Shown here: positions 2,725-11,873 of the stretch, one piece after another
How the letters are laid out: every line of letters starts with the position of its first letter
Position numbering within the stretch: the stretch's first letter is position 1
Assembly (NCBI GenBank): GCA_017649605.1
Contig: JAGCGL010000018.1
Coordinates: forward strand, 1 to 64,000
Direction: 5' to 3'
Length of the DNA: 64,000 bases
DNA from: Spirochaetia bacterium
GTDB taxonomy: Bacteria > Spirochaetota > Spirochaetia > CADAEX01
Program-made: the position numbers and the translations under genes
Notes under the pieces: generated by a model
Told to the model about the DNA's origin: nothing
Database searches by the model: none
What the model saw: the letters and a program-made list of their open reading frames with translations, nothing else

Positions 2725-2777
2725 ACCTATTTAATCGGCAGTTTCTTAAAATAGTTAAATTAATAAATAAATATCAA

Positions 2778-2806
2778 TTGTGTTTTTACCTATGTTATTA
2801 TAAAAT
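2778..2806 (+). promoter_or_regulatory. Sigma70-type promoter of the PRTase-ECF operon
   Basis: TTGTGT (2778-2783), 17-bp spacer, TAAAAT (2801-2806), about 18 nt before the ATG at 2824. The leader is too short for a riboswitch. Confidence 0.55.
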
Positions 2807-2823
2807 TCATATAGGAGGGGGTT

Positions 2824-3378
2824 ATGGGCAAGTATTATGAGATGAACATCGTAGGCTGCATCCGCAGGCTTCCCATCGTAAGAATCGAAGACAATCTGGA
2901 TATCGCAAGCTTTGTCCTCTTAGGAGATGCCGAGCTGGTTGTAAAGGCTGCTCAGGTGCTGGACGGCAGGCTGCCGGAGGCCGATTACCTTATCACTGCC
3001 GAGGCGAAGGGTATTCCGCTGGTTCAGGAGCTGGCCCGTCTCCGTGGCATGAAACGCTATTTTGTTGCGCGTAAAAGTGTAAAGCCATATATGACAGACC
3101 CCTTTGTCACCGAGGTCTATTCCATCACCACCAAGAAAAAGCAGATTCTCTGTCTGGACAGGGAGGAGAGCGACCTGATCAAGGGCAAGAAGATCCTTAT
3201 CGTGGATGATGTTATAAGCACAGGCGAATCGCTCAAGGCCATGGAGACCCTGGTGGAGAAGGCCGGAGGCAATATTGTGGGCAAGGCCTGCATTCTGGCC
3301 GAGGGTGATGCAAAGAACCGCAAGGATATCATATATCTCGAAGAACTTCCCGTATTCCCAGTTACAGCAGACAGATAG
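2824..3378 (+). CDS. Phosphoribosyltransferase, adenine/xanthine PRTase-like
   Basis: Type I PRTase of 184 residues. It should transfer a base onto PRPP to make a nucleoside 5'-monophosphate. The PRPP loop is clear: ILIVDDVISTGES at residues 124-136 (two Asp followed by TG). The N-terminal part, with DNLDIASFVLLGDAEL and a flexible-hood-like ARKSVKPYM segment, is like the Apt/Xpt group, but the base-recognition residues do not match a named enzyme by eye. A strong Shine-Dalgarno (AGGAGGGG) precedes the ATG. It is first in an operon with a complete ECF transporter and a creatininase-family hydrolase, so its base is probably what the transporter imports, or a product of it. Fold certain, substrate unknown. 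Confidence 0.85.
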   Translation: MGKYYEMNIVGCIRRLPIVRIEDNLDIASFVLLGDAELVVKAAQVLDGRLPEADYLITAEAKGIPLVQELARLRGMKRYFVARKSVKPYMTDPFVTEVYSITTKKKQILCLDREESDLIKGKKILIVDDVISTGESLKAMETLVEKAGGNIVGKACILAEGDAKNRKDIIYLEELPVFPVTADR

Positions 3379-3386
3379 GTATAAAG

Positions 3387-5051
3387 ATGGACTTCAGGGT
3401 AGAGGGCATAAGTTATAAGTACAGCAAGGAGGGGCGGACTGTCCTTGACAATGTGAGCTTCTCCATAGAGCAGGGAAAAGTCACTGCCATAGTAGGTCCA
3501 AGCGGATGTGGAAAGAGCACACTGCTTGAGATTTTAAGCGGGGTTATCCCCACCCTTATAAGCAACGGGGAGCTCTCCGGCACATTCCAGAAGCCGGAAG
3601 ATAGCCTTATCAGCGTAGTAAGCCAGACTCCGGAGAACCAGCTTTTCGGCTACGGAGTTGAGGATGCCATAGCGTTCGGCCTTGAGAATATGGGCATTCC
3701 ACAGGCCGAGATCGCCCAGAGAATGGACTATGTGCTTGACCTCTTAAGCCTCCAGTACCTGCGGGCAAGGAGCGTCGCAAACCTTTCGGGAGGGCAGCGG
3801 CAGGCAGTGTGCATAGCATCGGTTCTGGCAATGCAACCCGACATCCTTATCATGGACGAGCCTGTAAGCTCCCTGGACCCCAATGGCAAGAGCCTTGTCC
3901 AGATGGTGCTCAAGCAGATAAGTCTGGATGGAAATACTGTAATACTTGTGGACAACAACCTGGTATGGTCTGCCGGCATAGTTGACCACATCATAGGAAT
4001 GCTTGACGGCAAGGTGGTGTTCGACGGCAGCAAGGAGGAGTTCTTCCAAGATTTCGAGCTCCAGCACCGGCTGGGTGTCATCATCCCTCAGGAGGTGGAG
4101 CTTTACCGAGGGCTTCTTCCATATTTCCCGGACCTCAAGATGTTCTATAACGTGGAGGATGGCCTCAACCAGCTTGCCATGATGGTGAATACAAAGCTCT
4201 TTTCCAAGGGCAATACACCGGCAGAGGAGACAGCTGAGAGCATAATATCGGTCCATAACCTTGAGAAGGTGTTCGGCAACAACTTCCACGCCCTTATGGA
4301 TGTGAATGCCAATATCCCGGAGGGGAAGATCACCGCAATTCTGGGGCAGAACGGAAGCGGCAAGACCACATTTGTAAAACATCTTAACGGCCTTTATAAG
4401 CCTACAACCGGGGATGTGCGCTACCGTGGAGAATCACTCCTGAATAAATCGGTAGCCCAGATCTCGCGTAACATAATACTGGTGTTCCAGCACCCTGAGC
4501 ACATGCTCTTCGAGGAGACAGTGGAGGCTGAGCTTACCTTCTGCGCCAGAATGCAGAACATACCTTTCGACAAAGAGAAGATAACAGAGGTCCTGACCAA
4601 GTACAACCTGCTGGAAGATAGAGAGAGATTCCCGCTCAACCTCTCTATGGGTAAGAAGCATATTCTTACTATTCTCTCTGTCCTTTTCTCCAGCGCAGAT
4701 GTGATTATACTGGATGAGCCCACCCTGGGTATGGACAGCTCCCTTATGGATGAGCTGGAGATTCTTATAAAGCGGCTTAAGGAAGAGGGGAAGACAGTAA
4801 TCATTATAAGCCACGAGATTCCTATGGTGTTCCGCGCTGTGGATGATGCCATAATCCTGAACAACGGAAAGAAGATATTCCAGGGAACAAAAGAGGAGAT
4901 GGCACTCAGGGACGATATTTTCGACAAGATACATATTGCCATGCCGCCTGTGGTGGTTATGTCCAAGGCTCTGGGCTTTGATAAGATCTGCTACAATGTG
5001 GATGAGTTTGTGGAAGAGGCCAAGGCTTTGAGAAGCAAGGAGGCTGAGTGA
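3387..5051 (+). CDS. ECF transporter ATPase, fused EcfA-EcfA' (two ABC domains)
   Basis: Cytoplasmic energy module of an energy-coupling-factor importer, with two ATP-binding cassettes in one 554-residue chain. Domain 1: Walker [10 protein letters not shown] at 37-45, signature LSGGQ near 133, Walker B LIMDEP near 155, but VDNN near 188 where the switch histidine is expected. Domain 2: Walker A GQNGSGKTT near 319, degenerate signature LSMGK near 419, Walker B IILDEP, and an intact switch histidine near 476. The two changes fall in the same composite ATP site, leaving one canonical and one degenerate site. It lies 8 nt after the PRTase and overlaps the T-component gene. Confidence 0.93.
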   Translation: MDFRVEGISYKYSKEGRTVLDNVSFSIEQGKVTAIVGPSGCGKSTLLEILSGVIPTLISNGELSGTFQKPEDSLISVVSQTPENQLFGYGVEDAIAFGLENMGIPQAEIAQRMDYVLDLLSLQYLRARSVANLSGGQRQAVCIASVLAMQPDILIMDEPVSSLDPNGKSLVQMVLKQISLDGNTVILVDNNLVWSAGIVDHIIGMLDGKVVFDGSKEEFFQDFELQHRLGVIIPQEVELYRGLLPYFPDLKMFYNVEDGLNQLAMMVNTKLFSKGNTPAEETAESIISVHNLEKVFGNNFHALMDVNANIPEGKITAILGQNGSGKTTFVKHLNGLYKPTTGDVRYRGESLLNKSVAQISRNIILVFQHPEHMLFEETVEAELTFCARMQNIPFDKEKITEVLTKYNLLEDRERFPLNLSMGKKHILTILSVLFSSADVIILDEPTLGMDSSLMDELEILIKRLKEEGKTVIIISHEIPMVFRAVDDAIILNNGKKIFQGTKEEMALRDDIFDKIHIAMPPVVVMSKALGFDKICYNVDEFVEEAKALRSKEAE

Positions 5052-5872
5052 TGGATTACTTAAAGTACGTCGACTCCAACTCCTTCCTCCATAAGCTTGA
5101 CCCGAGGACCAAGTTTGCATTCTTTGTGGTGATGGCTGTCCTTACCAGTGTGATAAAGTCATTTGTGGCGCTGGCATTCCTCCTTGTCTTCTTCATGATT
5201 ATCTGGAAGAGCTGCCATATCGGGGAGCATATCCTTATCCTCCTCTCGAAACTCAAGATATTGCTTCTCTTCATCTTCCTGCTGTGGCTGTGCCTGGGGC
5301 TGTTCCAGGAGCCGAAGGTGGAGGGTGGCCCTATATTCTTCCATACTACATTCAGCTGGGTGGGGCAGCAGCATGTATTCTGCTTCGACTGGTACGACTT
5401 CTACAAGGGTGCTGTCTATTCCCTGCGTATTTTCCTTATGATCTCTTCTTTCTATACAGTGCTTCTGACTACCAACTTCAGCGAGATGATACTGGGACTC
5501 CGCAAGTGGCATATCCCGTATTCTGTGGCATTTGCTATAGGCCTTATTTTCCAGATTATTCCTATCACAATCAAGGAGTTGCAGGCTATAATGGATGCCC
5601 AGAGCTCCCGGGGCCTCGAGATAGACAAGTGCAACTGGGTCACCAAGGTGAAGAACTATGTCACATTCTCGTTCCCGCTGCTGTTCAGGGTAATAAGCAA
5701 GGGACAGTCGATATCGCTGGCCATGCACTACTACAAGCTGGATTTCTCGGTCAAGCGGACTGCTTACAAAGCTATAAAGGCAAGCAGGCTTGATGTTTAT
5801 TTTATTGCTGCAAATGTTGTGGCAATCGCTATAACTATAGTGCTCAGAATCATGTACTACATACAGGTCTGA
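5051..5872 (+). CDS. ECF transporter transmembrane T component (EcfT)
   Basis: Integral membrane scaffold of 273 residues that links the ATPases to the substrate-binding S component. Several hydrophobic helices fill the N-terminal two thirds. AQSSRGLE near residue 183 matches the conserved Ala-Arg-Gly coupling motif that contacts the ATPase. I place the start at ATG 5051, inside the ATPase stop (one-base overlap) and 7 nt after AAGGAGG; a GTG at 5048 is only 4 nt from that site. Tight coupling to the genes on both sides supports one transport complex. Confidence 0.92.
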   Translation: MDYLKYVDSNSFLHKLDPRTKFAFFVVMAVLTSVIKSFVALAFLLVFFMIIWKSCHIGEHILILLSKLKILLLFIFLLWLCLGLFQEPKVEGGPIFFHTTFSWVGQQHVFCFDWYDFYKGAVYSLRIFLMISSFYTVLLTTNFSEMILGLRKWHIPYSVAFAIGLIFQIIPITIKELQAIMDAQSSRGLEIDKCNWVTKVKNYVTFSFPLLFRVISKGQSISLAMHYYKLDFSVKRTAYKAIKASRLDVYFIAANVVAIAITIVLRIMYYIQV

Positions 5873-5887
5873 GCAGAAGGAGGTTTT

Positions 5888-6667
5888 ATGATCAAACGAT
5901 GGGAAGAGCTTACCAGGGATGAAATAGGGGCCCTGGATAAGGATAAGAGCATAGTGGCTCTGCCGCTTTCTGCAACCGAGCAGCATGGTGCGCACCTTCC
6001 GGTGGGAACCGATGCTATCATCCTCTCCACATTGATCGACAAGATTATAGAAGGGGAGAAGTTCGAGAAGGGAAACCTTATCTTTGCCCCTCAGTTTCTT
6101 ATAGGAAAGAGCAACGAGCACATGTGTTTCCCCGGTACTCTCACATTCAAGGCAAAGACCTATTACTCAATGATTTATGATATTGCAGGTGCAATAGCGC
6201 ATCACGGCTTCAAGAAGCTGGTGCTCTTCAACAGCCACGGCGGAAACACAGATATGGCAAACCTTATAAGCAGGGATCTGCGCATAGATTTCGGTCTGCA
6301 GGTCTTTGTGTTCGACTGGTGGTTCACCGACTTCTGGGCCGACGGCCTCAAGGGGCTTAAGGAGTCCGGCATGTATGGTGTCTTCCATGCCTGCGAGCTA
6401 GAGACCAGCCTTATGCTGGCAGCCCGGCCCGACCTGGTCTATATGGACAAGGCTGTGGACGAGGATCCTGCCGACTGCTTCAAGGGGGACAAGTATGTGA
6501 CAGTCTTCGGACCGGTAAATGCGGGCTGGAAGACCAACGATGTGACAAAGAGCGGAGTTATAGGAGCTCCAACATTTGCCACAGCAGAAAAGGGGAAAAA
6601 GCTTTTTGATTACGCGTGCAAGAAGCTTATTAATATATTCAGCGAAATTGCAGATATAAATTATTGA
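5888..6667 (+). CDS. Creatininase-family amidohydrolase
   Basis: Metal-dependent hydrolase of 259 residues from the creatininase/MftE/FAPy-deformylase family. Metal ligands are visible: E31 and H33 in TEQHGAHLPVGTD, H36, D42, NSHGGN near 115-120, and HACELETS near 167-174. Known members open cyclic or formamido amides, for example creatinine or formamidopyrimidine nucleotides. The substrate here cannot be read from sequence. It sits between the T and S components of an ECF transporter with an upstream PRTase, so it probably acts on the imported compound, perhaps a damaged or modified purine. A good Shine-Dalgarno (GAAGGAGG) precedes the ATG. Confidence 0.88.
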   Translation: MIKRWEELTRDEIGALDKDKSIVALPLSATEQHGAHLPVGTDAIILSTLIDKIIEGEKFEKGNLIFAPQFLIGKSNEHMCFPGTLTFKAKTYYSMIYDIAGAIAHHGFKKLVLFNSHGGNTDMANLISRDLRIDFGLQVFVFDWWFTDFWADGLKGLKESGMYGVFHACELETSLMLAARPDLVYMDKAVDEDPADCFKGDKYVTVFGPVNAGWKTNDVTKSGVIGAPTFATAEKGKKLFDYACKKLINIFSEIADINY

Positions 6668-6680
6668 TCAGGAGGGAAAC

Positions 6681-7250
6681 ATGGCTAAAAAATTCTCGTT
6701 CGTCAATATCATCTTCTTCGTAGTATTTGGTGTATTGACTGGAGTTCTCTGGGCATACCTGTGCCCAATTCCACTTATTCCTGGAGCAGTTCACTTCAGG
6801 ACATTCGCTTTCATCATTCCGGTTATCGGCTATCTCTTTGGACCGGTATCAGGTTTCTTCGCAGGTTATATCGGAACCATCGTATGGGCTCTGCTGTCTG
6901 GAAACTTCATCCCGCTGCATTCACCGATTGCAGATGGTATCACAGTAGGTCTCTCTGCATTCTTCCCTGCATACTTCCATCTTAAGAATGGAAAGATCGA
7001 CCTGGTAGAACTTATCGATGCAAATAAGAGCGCATTTATCTGGAAGAGCCTCTTCCTCAGCGTACTCTTCGGTATCCTCATGATCCTCTCCACCAGCGCA
7101 TCTCTGGCATACTTTGCAGGCCTTGAATATACATGGTGTGTAATGTGGATCGGAATCGCAGATGTAGTTCCTATCGCTCTTACTCCATTTGTTGTCCTTC
7201 TCCTTGCAAAACGGATGAAGAACATCAGAAACATCATTCCATACGTTTAA
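6681..7250 (+). CDS. ECF transporter substrate-binding S component
   Basis: Six-helix membrane protein of 189 residues. Size and pattern fit an ECF S component: an N-terminal helix with small residues, then FLFGPVSGF-like and ADGITVGLSAFFPAYF segments. It determines what the transporter in this operon imports. I cannot place it in a named vitamin family (BioY, RibU, ThiT and similar). It is the last gene of the operon, 13 nt after the hydrolase, with AGGAGG before the ATG and a terminator after it. The dedicated ATPase, T component, PRTase and hydrolase suggest a base-like substrate. Confidence 0.8.
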   Translation: MAKKFSFVNIIFFVVFGVLTGVLWAYLCPIPLIPGAVHFRTFAFIIPVIGYLFGPVSGFFAGYIGTIVWALLSGNFIPLHSPIADGITVGLSAFFPAYFHLKNGKIDLVELIDANKSAFIWKSLFLSVLFGILMILSTSASLAYFAGLEYTWCVMWIGIADVVPIALTPFVVLLLAKRMKNIRNIIPYV

Positions 7251-7280
7251 TGAAAAATATATAGTCACGCGTAAACAAAG

Positions 7281-7306
7281 CCGGGGCACCCACCCCGGTT
7301 TTTTTT
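7281..7306 (+). terminator. Rho-independent terminator of the ECF operon
   Basis: Stem CCGGGG/CCCCGG with loop CACCCA, followed by eight T. It also forms the outer left edge of the long palindrome at 7284-7547. Confidence 0.9.
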
Positions 7307-8285: not shown

Positions 8286-9032
8286 TTATTTCTTCTGATA
8301 CTTTTCTGACCAAACCTTTGTTATCTTTGTGGGGAGCTCAAAATGCTGATAGTCTTTTCTGTCATCCCAGTTGCCGCCCCACTCAAAGCCTTTCTCGGTG
8401 AAAAGCTTGTAGCAGAGGTCGCCTTTGACAATCTTGTAATCAAACTTCTTTGTGCGGTCAAGGTATGGTTTTCCTGTGGCAGGCTCGATCACTTCTTTCT
8501 GGGTACCATCTGCATTCTTCACCATTTTATGGTACGGATTGTACAGCGTGTTGATGTCAACTGCCATCCCCAGACCATGCTTTGATACTGTGGTGGTGTG
8601 GGATATAAAGCGGAAGTTGAAGCATGATGAATTGTTGTCCCTCATCATAATCTCATCATCTGCCATATAATTGTCGGGGAGCACCATGCGCTCGATAGGG
8701 TAGCCTGCATCATACAGATTTTCCAGAATCTCAAGCACATCCTCGGCAATAAGGCGGTGCACCACCATCTCGCCTAAGTGCACATTGCCATCCTTATCCT
8801 TGTGTAATGCCTGTATGTAACGCAAATCCTCACGTGGCACAATGCAGTTCTCCTTGAAGGTGTTTCCCTGCTGCATCCTGAAAAAGAGTTCGTCGGAAAT
8901 AGGCAAGATTTCAAAACCTGGCCGCTCAGCTTTAAGCGGAAGGGCAGCTGCATTGTTTCCAGCAGCTAAAAATCCCGAAAGAATATAAACAGAAAATAAA
9001 ATGTTTAAAAATAATCTGATTGTCTTTCTCAT
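8286..9032 (-). CDS. Exported M15-family D-Ala-D-Ala carboxypeptidase-like peptidase
   Basis: Putative zinc peptidase of 248 residues acting on cell-wall peptides. An N-terminal hydrophobic stretch (residues 5-24) looks like a signal peptide or anchor. The VanY/CwlK-type zinc site is complete: H152 and D159 in SKHGLGMAVDIN, then E217 and H230 in the segment running from FEWGGNWDD to YQHFE. It is first in a short operon with acetolactate decarboxylase (13 nt apart), a pairing with no obvious functional logic. AAGGA precedes the ATG. Confidence 0.87.
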   Translation of the reverse strand: MRKTIRLFLNILFSVYILSGFLAAGNNAAALPLKAERPGFEILPISDELFFRMQQGNTFKENCIVPREDLRYIQALHKDKDGNVHLGEMVVHRLIAEDVLEILENLYDAGYPIERMVLPDNYMADDEIMMRDNNSSCFNFRFISHTTTVSKHGLGMAVDINTLYNPYHKMVKNADGTQKEVIEPATGKPYLDRTKKFDYKIVKGDLCYKLFTEKGFEWGGNWDDRKDYQHFELPTKITKVWSEKYQKK

Positions 9033-9085: not shown

Positions 9086-9520
9086 TTACACCTTCTGCAG
9101 CCCCTTGTCGTATGTTTTAAGAGGGACTGACAGGCGGCGGGCAAGCTCAAGATATGAGGCATCGTGGTAAGTAAGCCCGTTCTCCGAGGCCAGGTCAAAG
9201 ATCCGCTGCCGTATCTCTCCGGTACTCTGGATATCGGTTACAATAGGCAGCTGCTGCAGGTTGAACATAAGGTCTCTTGCATCAGCTTTTGAGAGAGGTA
9301 TCTGCTTTGAGTTTCTCCTGCGGGTACGGCAGAGCAGGGCGTTTCCAATCTCGTACCAGAAAAGCTGTGGCACATGGATCTGGCCGTTGTGTGTGATTAT
9401 ATATTCAATGTCCTTCACGCAGTCTGATAGCTCATCATCACAGATTCCGTTAAGAAGGTATGCTGCCATGAAAGAGGTGTCTGCAACAAAGCAGGGGAAT
9501 GTGTCAATATTTTCTTCCAT
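9086..9520 (-). CDS. VapC-type PIN-domain toxin RNase
   Basis: Toxin of a type II toxin-antitoxin pair, expected to cut RNA. It has 144 residues with the PIN acidic site: D14 in VADTS, E57 in WYEIGNAL, D120 in LTYHDASYLELA, and D138. It overlaps the 3' end of the antitoxin gene by 17 nt, the normal coupled arrangement. The target RNA is unknown. Confidence 0.9.
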   Translation of the reverse strand: MEENIDTFPCFVADTSFMAAYLLNGICDDELSDCVKDIEYIITHNGQIHVPQLFWYEIGNALLCRTRRRNSKQIPLSKADARDLMFNLQQLPIVTDIQSTGEIRQRIFDLASENGLTYHDASYLELARRLSVPLKTYDKGLQKV

Positions 9521-9788
9521 AATCCCTCATCTCCTTGATATCAGAAGCTGTAAGAGGAGCAATCCCCTCTTTCTCCATTTTGAAGGATAATTCCGAAGAT
9601 ATCTTCATGATGCGTCTGTGGGCTTCCATTGCTGCTGCGTTCTGTAATTTAATCTCTCCCTGCAGGACTGCCACTTGCTTGCCATTCTTGGAGATGCGCA
9701 CAGTTGTCCCCTCCTGCACCTTGCGGAGCAGCTCGGAGAAATGGGTCTTTGCATCGAATGCGCCGATATCGATTACTGCCAATGCCAT
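9504..9788 (-). CDS. Phd/YefM-type antitoxin
   Basis: Antitoxin of 94 residues that should neutralise the downstream VapC-like toxin and repress the operon. The N-terminal part, FDAKTHFSELLRKVQEGTTV followed by ISKNGKQVAVL, is the classic Phd/YefM DNA-binding fold. The C-terminal half should be the flexible toxin-binding tail. AGGAGG precedes the ATG. On the minus strand TTGATT, 17 bp, TATTAT forms a plausible promoter just upstream (about 9806-9834), next to repeated AACCAG motifs that may be operator half sites. Confidence 0.9.
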   Translation of the reverse strand: MALAVIDIGAFDAKTHFSELLRKVQEGTTVRISKNGKQVAVLQGEIKLQNAAAMEAHRRIMKISSELSFKMEKEGIAPLTASDIKEMRDYGRKY

Positions 9789-9954
9789 ATATGCCTCCTG
9801 TTAATATAATAACACAACCCTTTGACAAAATCAACCAGTTTTTAAACCAGTCGATATTGCGACCCGTAGGGAATCGCACCTAATCGAGGTTGGTACTCAC
9901 TGCTGGCTGTTATTGACTAAACCAACTGTTTGTGGTAAAAAAAGCTATAAATGC

Positions 9955-10207
9955 GGTGACGAAAAACCAGTAGGACGCCGATAACCTTCAAAGAGAGCTG
10001 CCGGATGGTGCAAGGCAGTGGAGGCCGGTGCTCCGAATTACATTTCCGAGCAGCGCTTTGAAACACTTCCAAGGTGGAGTAGAGGTCGCCGGGTACGCCC
10101 GTTACAGCGCAAGGGTATGTCTGTACCTTATAAGGCTCCTCCTGCGAGGGATGGGCAAACAGAGGTGGTACCGCGGGAACTCTCGCCCTCTGTGTTTTCT
10201 TTTTGTA
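9955..10207 (+). promoter_or_regulatory. T-box riboswitch leader of the acyl-CoA synthetase operon
   Basis: tRNA-sensing leader RNA. Stem I: AGTA at 9969-9972; GGACGCCG (9973-9980) pairs, with one bulge, with CGGTGCTCC (ends 10034); AGAGAG at 9992-9997; GGTGCAA apical loop near 10007; then GAA at 10035-10037 with the specifier just after. The specifier reads UUA (Leu) at 10038-10040, or UAC (Tyr) at 10039-10041 if shifted one base. The T-box core AGGTGGTACCGCG is at 10163-10175; UGGU would pair with a tRNA end whose discriminator is A. A terminator hairpin CAGAGG/CCTCTG (10160-10192) with a T-rich tail follows, and competes with the antiterminator. A possible promoter is TTGACT 9913-9918 / TAAAAA 9936-9941. 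Confidence 0.9.
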
Positions 10208-10238: not shown

Positions 10239-11873
10239 ATGGTTATTACTGAGCTTCTTGAACGCAATTCAAGGCTGTATGGTGCGGAGTGCGCACTGGT
10301 GGAGATCAACCCCTCTGAGAGCAGGGACAAGGCTGTCACATGGCGTGAGGCCAGCCTTATCGAGGGAACTCAGGATGCCCCATACCGAAGAGAGATGTCC
10401 TGGCGCTCCTTTGAACGAAGGGCAAACCGCTTTGCAAATCTTCTTTTAAGCCGTGGTCTCAAGCGGGGCACTAAGGTGGGAATCCTTATGATGAACTGCC
10501 TGGAGTATCTTCCGATTTACTTCGGAATCCTCAAGGCGGGCTGCATTGTGGTTCCTATGAACTTCCGCTACTCAAGCGAAGAGATTACCTACTGCCTTGA
10601 CCTGGCCGATGTTGAAGTGTTAGTCTTCGGACCTGAGTTCATTGAGCGTATGGATGCGATCCAGGACAGGATTCCAAAGGTAAGATACCAGTTCTTTATT
10701 GGAAAGAACGGCCCTTCCTATACCGAAAACTTCTTCGATCTCATGCATTATTTCTCGGCCGATCAACCTCCTGTGCTCTTCACCGAGGATGATCTTGCAG
10801 CCATCTACTTCTCATCCGGCACCACAGGATTCCCGAAGGCGATCCTGCACAAGCACCGCTCGCTCATAAGCTCATGCATAGTGGAGCAGAAGCACCACGG
10901 CCAGACCCGTGATGATGTCTTCCTGTGCATTCCTCCTCTGTACCACACCGGTGCCAAGATGCACTGGTTCGGAAGCCTTCTTGCAGGAAGCCGTGCTGTG
11001 CTCCTTAAAGGTATCAAGCCGGAGTGGATCCTGCGCACTATTACAGAAGAGAAATGCACCATAGTATGGCTTCTTGTTCCATGGGCACAGGATATCCTTG
11101 ATGCAATAGATTCAGGCCGCATAAAGCTGGAACACTATATGCTTGACCAGTGGCGCCTTATGCACATCGGCGCACAGCCTGTGCCTCAGAGCCTTATACA
11201 GCGGTGGCTCAAGGTGTTCCCTCATCATCAGTACGACACCAACTATGGCCTTTCCGAGTCTATCGGACCAGGCTGTGTCCACCTTGGGGTGGAGAATGTA
11301 CACAAGGTTGGCGCTATCGGCAAGGCCGGCTACCTGTGGGAGACAAGGATTGTGGATGACAAGCACAACGATGTCAAGCAGGGCGAGGTAGGCGAGCTGG
11401 CAGTAAAAGGTCCCGGCGTCATGGAATGCTACTACAAGAACCCGAAAGCTACAGCTGAGTCACTTGCAGACGGCTGGCTCTTCACCGGCGATATGGCTAA
11501 GGAGGATGAGGATGGCTTCATCTATCTGGTTGACCGGAAGAAGGATGTCATCATCACCGGAGGCGAGAACCTCTACCCAGTGGAGATTGAGAACTTCCTC
11601 CGCAAGTTCGACAAGATAAAGGATGTGGCTGTAATCGGCTTCCCTGAGCCGCGGCTCGGAGAGATTGCAGGTGCCATCATCGAGATCAAGGAGGGGATGA
11701 CCTGCACCGAGGATGAGATAAACGATTTTGCTCAAGGATTACCACGCTACAAGCGGCCTAAGAAGATAATCTTTGCAAAGGTTCCGCGTAACCCGACCGG
11801 AAAGATCGAGAAGCCGCTTTTACGCAAGATGTACAGCACCACAAACCTGGTTGCAGAGGAGATCGGCGAATAA
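10239..11873 (+). CDS. AMP-dependent acyl-CoA synthetase / ligase
   Basis: ANL-superfamily enzyme of 544 residues that activates a carboxylic acid as acyl-AMP and then acyl-CoA. Motifs: the ATP loop YFSSGTTGFPKA near 189-200, YGLSES near 336, the ATP/ribose motif WLFTGDMAKED near 413, the hinge DRKKDVIITGGENLYP near 430, and the C-terminal catalytic lysine in NPTGKIEK. The substrate acid cannot be read directly. The T-box upstream means that low charging of one tRNA turns the gene on, so the acid is probably a precursor of that amino acid, for example isovalerate for leucine. It is first in an operon with folP, cdaA and cdaR. Confidence 0.93.
   Translation: MVITELLERNSRLYGAECALVEINPSESRDKAVTWREASLIEGTQDAPYRREMSWRSFERRANRFANLLLSRGLKRGTKVGILMMNCLEYLPIYFGILKAGCIVVPMNFRYSSEEITYCLDLADVEVLVFGPEFIERMDAIQDRIPKVRYQFFIGKNGPSYTENFFDLMHYFSADQPPVLFTEDDLAAIYFSSGTTGFPKAILHKHRSLISSCIVEQKHHGQTRDDVFLCIPPLYHTGAKMHWFGSLLAGSRAVLLKGIKPEWILRTITEEKCTIVWLLVPWAQDILDAIDSGRIKLEHYMLDQWRLMHIGAQPVPQSLIQRWLKVFPHHQYDTNYGLSESIGPGCVHLGVENVHKVGAIGKAGYLWETRIVDDKHNDVKQGEVGELAVKGPGVMECYYKNPKATAESLADGWLFTGDMAKEDEDGFIYLVDRKKDVIITGGENLYPVEIENFLRKFDKIKDVAVIGFPEPRLGEIAGAIIEIKEGMTCTEDEINDFAQGLPRYKRPKKIIFAKVPRNPTGKIEKPLLRKMYSTTNLVAEEIGE

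Follow-up and report, generated by a model that had tools for sequence, protein, structure and literature searches.

The Spirochaetia genome GCA_017649605.1 (1.79 Mb in 136 contigs) carries a compact operon of five co-directional genes that is probably dedicated to the acquisition of purine bases. It occupies positions 2824-7250 of the + strand of the 64,000-nucleotide stretch of contig JAGCGL010000018.1 analysed here, referred to as the window, and encodes in order a phosphoribosyltransferase (PRT) dependent on 5-phosphoribosyl 1-pyrophosphate (PRPP), a fused EcfA-EcfA' ATPase, an EcfT protein, a creatininase-family hydrolase and an S component, the second, third and fifth being parts of an energy-coupling factor (ECF) transporter. 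In the proposed route the S component would capture a purine base outside the cell, the most likely being one of the 6-oxopurines guanine, xanthine and hypoxanthine. From what is known of their families, the EcfT and fused EcfA encoded in the operon itself would then power ATP-dependent import, and the PRT would trap the base with PRPP as its 5'-mononucleotide. The creatininase-family enzyme would play an accessory part, perhaps hydrolysing an amide or cyclic amide in a purine derivative that enters or leaves the route. Guanine would control the operon in those Firmicutes that have a riboswitch before it, probably through an OFF switch. Two observations suggest that the ECF-PRT core handles ordinary purine bases: guanine-type riboswitches lie upstream of orthologous operons, and the same PRT family is elsewhere paired with purine permeases. 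An earlier, first-pass annotation of the window had suggested a salvage system for a purine-like or ring-opened base, and its interpretation is partly supported: these two observations bear out the purine-like part, and not a ring-opened or unknown base.

Composition of the operon

All five open reading frames (ORFs) recognized in the first-pass annotation were confirmed and their families identified; the junctions between them measure, in gene order, 8, -4, 15 and 13 bases (Table 1). Four of the five products exceed curated cut-offs, the exception being the S component. The ECF transporters studied in most detail take up vitamins, related micronutrients and metal ions. The locus is an ECF transporter operon, with EcfA ATP-binding cassette domains, EcfT and an S fold, the three features tested, all found in it. 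The ECF_ATPase_1 and ECF_ATPase_2 models are both matched above cut-off within a single protein of 554 amino acids, and EcfT scores 49.7 against the cobalt-specific CbiQ model TIGR02454, under its cut-off of 111.8.

The fifth gene product is identified as an S component by its predicted structure. The AlphaFold model (maf75e506b110, pLDDT 83.9) matches the known S components RibU, BioY, ThiT, FolT and PanT in Foldseek (probability ~1, E 0.005-0.2, TM score 0.5-0.65). Membership of a known vitamin family would have counted against the first-pass annotation, but the protein reaches no curated family or vitamin-family cut-off, the riboflavin-type family PF07155 giving 18.1 bits against a gathering cut-off of 26.7. 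A search of PDB sequences gave no match at E<=10, and its relatives in 291 Clostridia genomes were orthologues only. The label "aminotriazole resistance protein" borne by a Rhizobium S component (L114:8911-9483) was left unused; it looks like a label transferred from fungi, because papers containing the phrase appear to concern yeast or other fungi.

The PRT scores 237.8 bits against NCBIfam NF005592/PRK07322 (cut-off 143) and also matches PF00156, while models of xanthine PRT (XPRT) lie far under their cut-offs. Its PRPP motif, ILIVDDVISTGES, has an invariant core, and DDVISTG is invariant. The fold resembles that of adenine PRT (APRT) and XPRT, and activity on a purine base is predicted from the sequence.

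Riboswitches upstream of orthologous operons

Purine riboswitches (RF00167, 47-68 bits against a cut-off of 37) lie upstream of four Firmicutes operons (L048-L051). Read from alignments, all four aptamers keep U22, U51 and C74; at position 74 a C marks the guanine class and a U the adenine class (PMC11477304). Each has one extra U in the 3' strand of P3, which is missing from three permease-linked aptamers (L132, L141, L142), and L048 and L049 have a G at position 73. Assignment to the xanthine-II class was rejected on account of the conserved U51. The 8-oxoguanine riboswitch, which goes with 8-oxoguanine deaminase and is not known to accompany genes like these, was set aside. Published guanine-II aptamers share all three of these ligand-contacting residues, have insertions close to the junction, lie mostly upstream of PRT genes and are predicted ON switches (PMC9295807). 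Compared by description, the present aptamers resemble them as U22, U51, C74 variant guanine aptamers before PRT genes in Firmicutes, but differ in the extra P3 residue and in that L050 and L051 look like OFF switches.

These leaders bear on two other candidates for the substrate. Adenine, taken up by an adenine importer and used by an adenine PRT, with the riboswitch reporting guanine merely as the general purine end product, is improbable. It keeps some standing because the nearest solved relatives of the PRT (5zgo, 6fsp) are annotated as adenine or adenine/guanine PRT; in addition 7f06 uses adenine, and PRK07322 is named adenine PRT in NCBIfam. The PRT-linked riboswitches nevertheless have C74 and not the U74 of adenine switches, and in the Lachnospiraceae described below the deaminase-like gene beside the PRT is of the guanine and not the adenine type. 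An importer for a vitamin or 7-deazapurine, of the riboflavin or queuosine type, with the PRT adjacent by chance, is very improbable: the weak similarity of the S component to PF07155 would fit, as would the precedent of QrtT, a known S component that imports queuosine, queuine and preQ1 (PMC11477304), but no vitamin-family cut-off is reached, the leaders contain purine and not flavin mononucleotide (FMN) or preQ1 riboswitches, and those salvage routes do not involve a PRT.

Other partners of the phosphoribosyltransferase

A close PRT homologue was found in 16 of 320 Bacilli, one of them the search seed. At 12 of the 15 non-seed Bacilli loci without an ECF operon (L132-L142 and L144) the PRT gene directly follows that of a membrane protein of 353-366 amino acids, present in L138 as a 201-residue fragment; among five such proteins tested, three were NCS2-like at scores below the Pfam cut-off and two had no match. 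Three of the permease-PRT operons (L132, L141, L142) stand behind guanine-type purine riboswitches, in a scan that left out L144-L146.

Two Lachnospiraceae (L053 with L100; L054 with L101) have a PRT 50-53% identical to that of the window, which shares its contig with a 57%-identical creatininase at a distance of ~13 kb. The cluster (L053:6325-14728) includes DeoR, BtpA, a PnrA-type ABC importer, a nucleoside hydrolase, FGGY and ribokinase-type kinases, a major facilitator superfamily (MFS) protein and a guanine deaminase-like enzyme, the last at 243 bits to TIGR02967, under the cut-off of 375. On plasmids of Rhizobium etli and Geminicoccaceae the order is S-A-T-PRT, with S proteins ~42% identical to that of the window and PRTs closest to PRK07322, though at 118 and 120 bits, under the cut-off of 143. 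These operons contain no creatininase, which shows the ECF transporter and the PRT to be the operon core. Taken together, the pairings therefore describe one PRT family that works beside different importers, of purine type where they can be read, and an ECF importer tied to a PRT in three phyla. The genes neighbouring the PRT of L102 (Angelakisella) were uninformative.

The spirochaete genus also has a second PRK07322 PRT, which adjoins a DUF401/TIGR00529 membrane protein in one locus (L103:3522-5419) and in another (L105:5005-8164) is convergent with genes including IMP dehydrogenase.

The creatininase-family enzyme

The fourth gene product is most plausibly an accessory amidohydrolase, predicted to be metal-dependent and to use a purine derivative as substrate. 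In fold it matches creatininase 3a6x (TM score ~0.7), and in the computed alignment with Pseudomonas putida creatininase (PDB 1j2t, 3a6x) the positions that we take to be metal ligands are kept (E31, H33, D42, H117 and E172), as is the lid tryptophan (W145, aligned with P. putida W154). It differs from that enzyme in having G119 in place of E122 and no counterpart of W174, and it scores 111.1 bits against the model of creatininase proper, TIGR04448, whose equivalog cut-off is 235. The ArfB, MftE and IolN models are likewise under their cut-offs, so that no NCBIfam subfamily assignment is reached: ArfB, the formamidopyrimidine-nucleotide deformylase (NF033501), gives 21.2 bits against an equivalog cut-off of 180, and IolN 77 bits against 245. 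A function like that of the formamidopyrimidine-nucleotide hydrolases, which the first-pass annotation named as members of the family, was not borne out.

Members of the creatininase family act on creatinine and on the GTP-derived formamidopyrimidine nucleotide (ArfB). With this range in mind, a modified or ring-opened purine might be the imported compound, the creatininase-type enzyme first hydrolysing an amide (for example by formamidopyrimidine deformylation or the opening of a cyclic amide) before the PRT ribosylates the product. The conserved metal ligands and W145 agree with such a role, the gene is fixed in the operons of Bacillota and Spirochaetota, and a creatininase sits with guanine-degrading genes. 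This account is nonetheless unlikely, given that none of the four subfamily models is matched at its cut-off and that the ECF-PRT core occurs without the enzyme. Because that core exists without it in Rhizobium and Geminicoccaceae, the creatininase-family enzyme is accessory and dispensable for the core.

The enzyme could also belong to the sugar branch of nucleoside breakdown and act on a lactone or keto-sugar, as the example of IolN, a sugar-acting family member, would suggest, its place in the ECF operon reflecting co-inheritance only. In L057 an orthologue precedes DeoR and a sugar-type ABC importer, the creatininase of L053 and L054 lies with BtpA and ribokinase-type genes, and there is the similarity to IolN itself. 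That similarity falls far under the cut-off, however, and all other genes of the ECF operon concern base import and ribosylation, which makes a sugar substrate quite improbable. Around more distant creatininases (L083-L095 and L058-L061), inspected by ORF lengths and starts only, no clear purine context was seen. In Sporanaerobium the creatininase match (L052:8001-8828) is spread over two frames that overlap near 8681-8705, through either a frameshift or a sequencing error.

Distribution of the operon

A creatininase scan of genome contigs, made with exact peptide patterns from one protein and so under-counting divergent orthologues, gave 23 loci. The expectation that a dedicated ECF importer and a PRPP-dependent PRT would keep a conserved order, in spirochaetes and beyond, held: all five genes occur in identical order in 14 other loci of two phyla (L039, L040, L042-L052, L056), namely four Spirochaetia metagenome-assembled genomes (MAGs), Roseburia, four Eisenbergiella, Clostridiaceae, Oscillospiraceae, two Sporolactobacillus and Sporanaerobium. 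Another Spirochaetia locus, the fifth (L041), is truncated at the end of its contig and has the last four genes, a Veillonellaceae MAG (L055) has all five rearranged as PRT-creatininase-A-T-S, and L104 is one more complete copy. Spirochaetia MAGs from rumen and reticulum contain near-identical loci. Across phyla, the window and Lachnospiraceae copies are 69-84% identical, and a concatenated tree groups the spirochaete copies in a single clade next to those of Lachnospiraceae and Sporanaerobium.

Counting in each case the genome used as seed, searches recovered creatininase orthologues from 1 of 399 Bacilli, 2 of 391 Clostridia and 1 of 200 Negativicutes. Within the spirochaetes the S gene is absent from one member of the genus (G001) and from all four sister-genus genomes; G001 has the flanking pyrophosphatase without the operon. 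The operon is thus rare and patchy yet similar across phyla, and horizontal transfer is therefore the simplest account and probably the correct one. In both Sporolactobacillus genomes a group II intron RNA (RF02005) lies directly 3' of the operon (L050:9456-9690 and L051:9456-9690).

Relation to known systems

The xpt-pbuX operon of Bacillus subtilis pairs a xanthine PRT with an NCS2 permease under a guanine riboswitch. The present operon is like it in combining a purine importer with a PRT of APRT/XPRT-like fold and, in the four orthologous operons, in its guanine-type riboswitch. It is proposed to function similarly yet is not that operon, because its importer is of the ECF and not the NCS2 type, its PRT belongs to another subfamily and the window copy has no riboswitch; a creatininase is also added. 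A second parallel is the QrtT system of Clostridioides difficile (PMC11477304), which salvages queuosine, queuine and preQ1: it too is an ECF importer for a purine-like compound, with salvage enzymes alongside and a riboswitch upstream. QrtT, however, draws on a shared ECF core and is encoded with QueK and QueL behind a preQ1 switch, whereas the operon described here has its own ECF module, a PRT and guanine-type switches.

Several observations weigh against purine-base acquisition as the role of the operon. No purine riboswitch was found in the window leader (Rfam scan at E<=1) or in the scanned Lachnospiraceae copies, so that the assignment for the window copy rests on its orthologues. The direction of the switch is weakly indicated by folding: the terminator probability in the L050 and L051 leaders is 0.90 with the aptamer enforced and 0.76 and 0.78 without, which is consistent with an OFF switch, and the L049 leader gives no directional signal. 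The solved PRT relatives lean towards adenine, as described above, and the creatininase is left unexplained by a plain importer-PRT pair, since such a pair needs no hydrolase. Finally, the genus of the window organism also has an NCS2 permease and PurH and shows no obvious dependence on the ECF importer; on these grounds purine auxotrophy is not supported as the reason for the operon.

If purine-base acquisition is correct, plain purine bases, predicted from gene context and riboswitches, would widen the substrate range of ECF transporters, and ECF, NCS2-like and nucleoside ABC importers would be seen to substitute for each other beside a single PRT. The creatininase, as a conserved partner, would offer a concrete case in which to look for new purine chemistry in gut anaerobes. 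A more far-reaching but rather unlikely proposal is that the S component represents an undescribed ECF family for canonical purines and the creatininase a new chemistry on the purine ring or on a damaged purine, which would allow salvage of derivatives beyond the reach of ordinary permease-PRT pairs. Open-access text searches, which are not proof of novelty, found no paper on an ECF importer for canonical purines, none combining energy-coupling factor, creatininase and phosphoribosyltransferase, and none combining BtpA with creatininase.

Features of the window

The coordinates of the operon and its flanking signals are collected in Table 1. The terminator call rests on the position of the hairpin, because such hairpins are about equally common in shuffled sequence.

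Table 1. Features of the five-gene operon and its flanks in the window.
Feature	Position	Strand	Basis
Leader and likely promoter region (predicted)	2765..2823	+	read from sequence
PRPP-dependent PRT, PRK07322 subfamily	2824..3378	+	NF005592, PF00156
Fused EcfA-EcfA' ATPase, two ABC domains	3387..5051	+	TIGR04520 and TIGR04521, both above cut-off
EcfT transmembrane component	5048..5872	+	PF02361, 92.1 bits
Creatininase-family hydrolase, metal-dependent by family	5888..6667	+	PF02633, 224.3 bits; fold
S component, substrate-binding by fold; no curated family	6681..7250	+	AlphaFold model and Foldseek; weak PF07155
Intrinsic-terminator-like hairpin with T run, operon end	7277..7302	+	pattern scan

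Elsewhere in the window a T-box leader (RF00230, 106.9 bits against a cut-off of 93) at 9947-10193 lies upstream of an ORF at 10239-11873 that resembles AMP-dependent ligases, an unusual gene for a T-box. A PIN-domain protein at 9086-9520 overlaps an upstream antitoxin-like ORF of 94 amino acids (9504-9788), and the two probably form a toxin-antitoxin pair.

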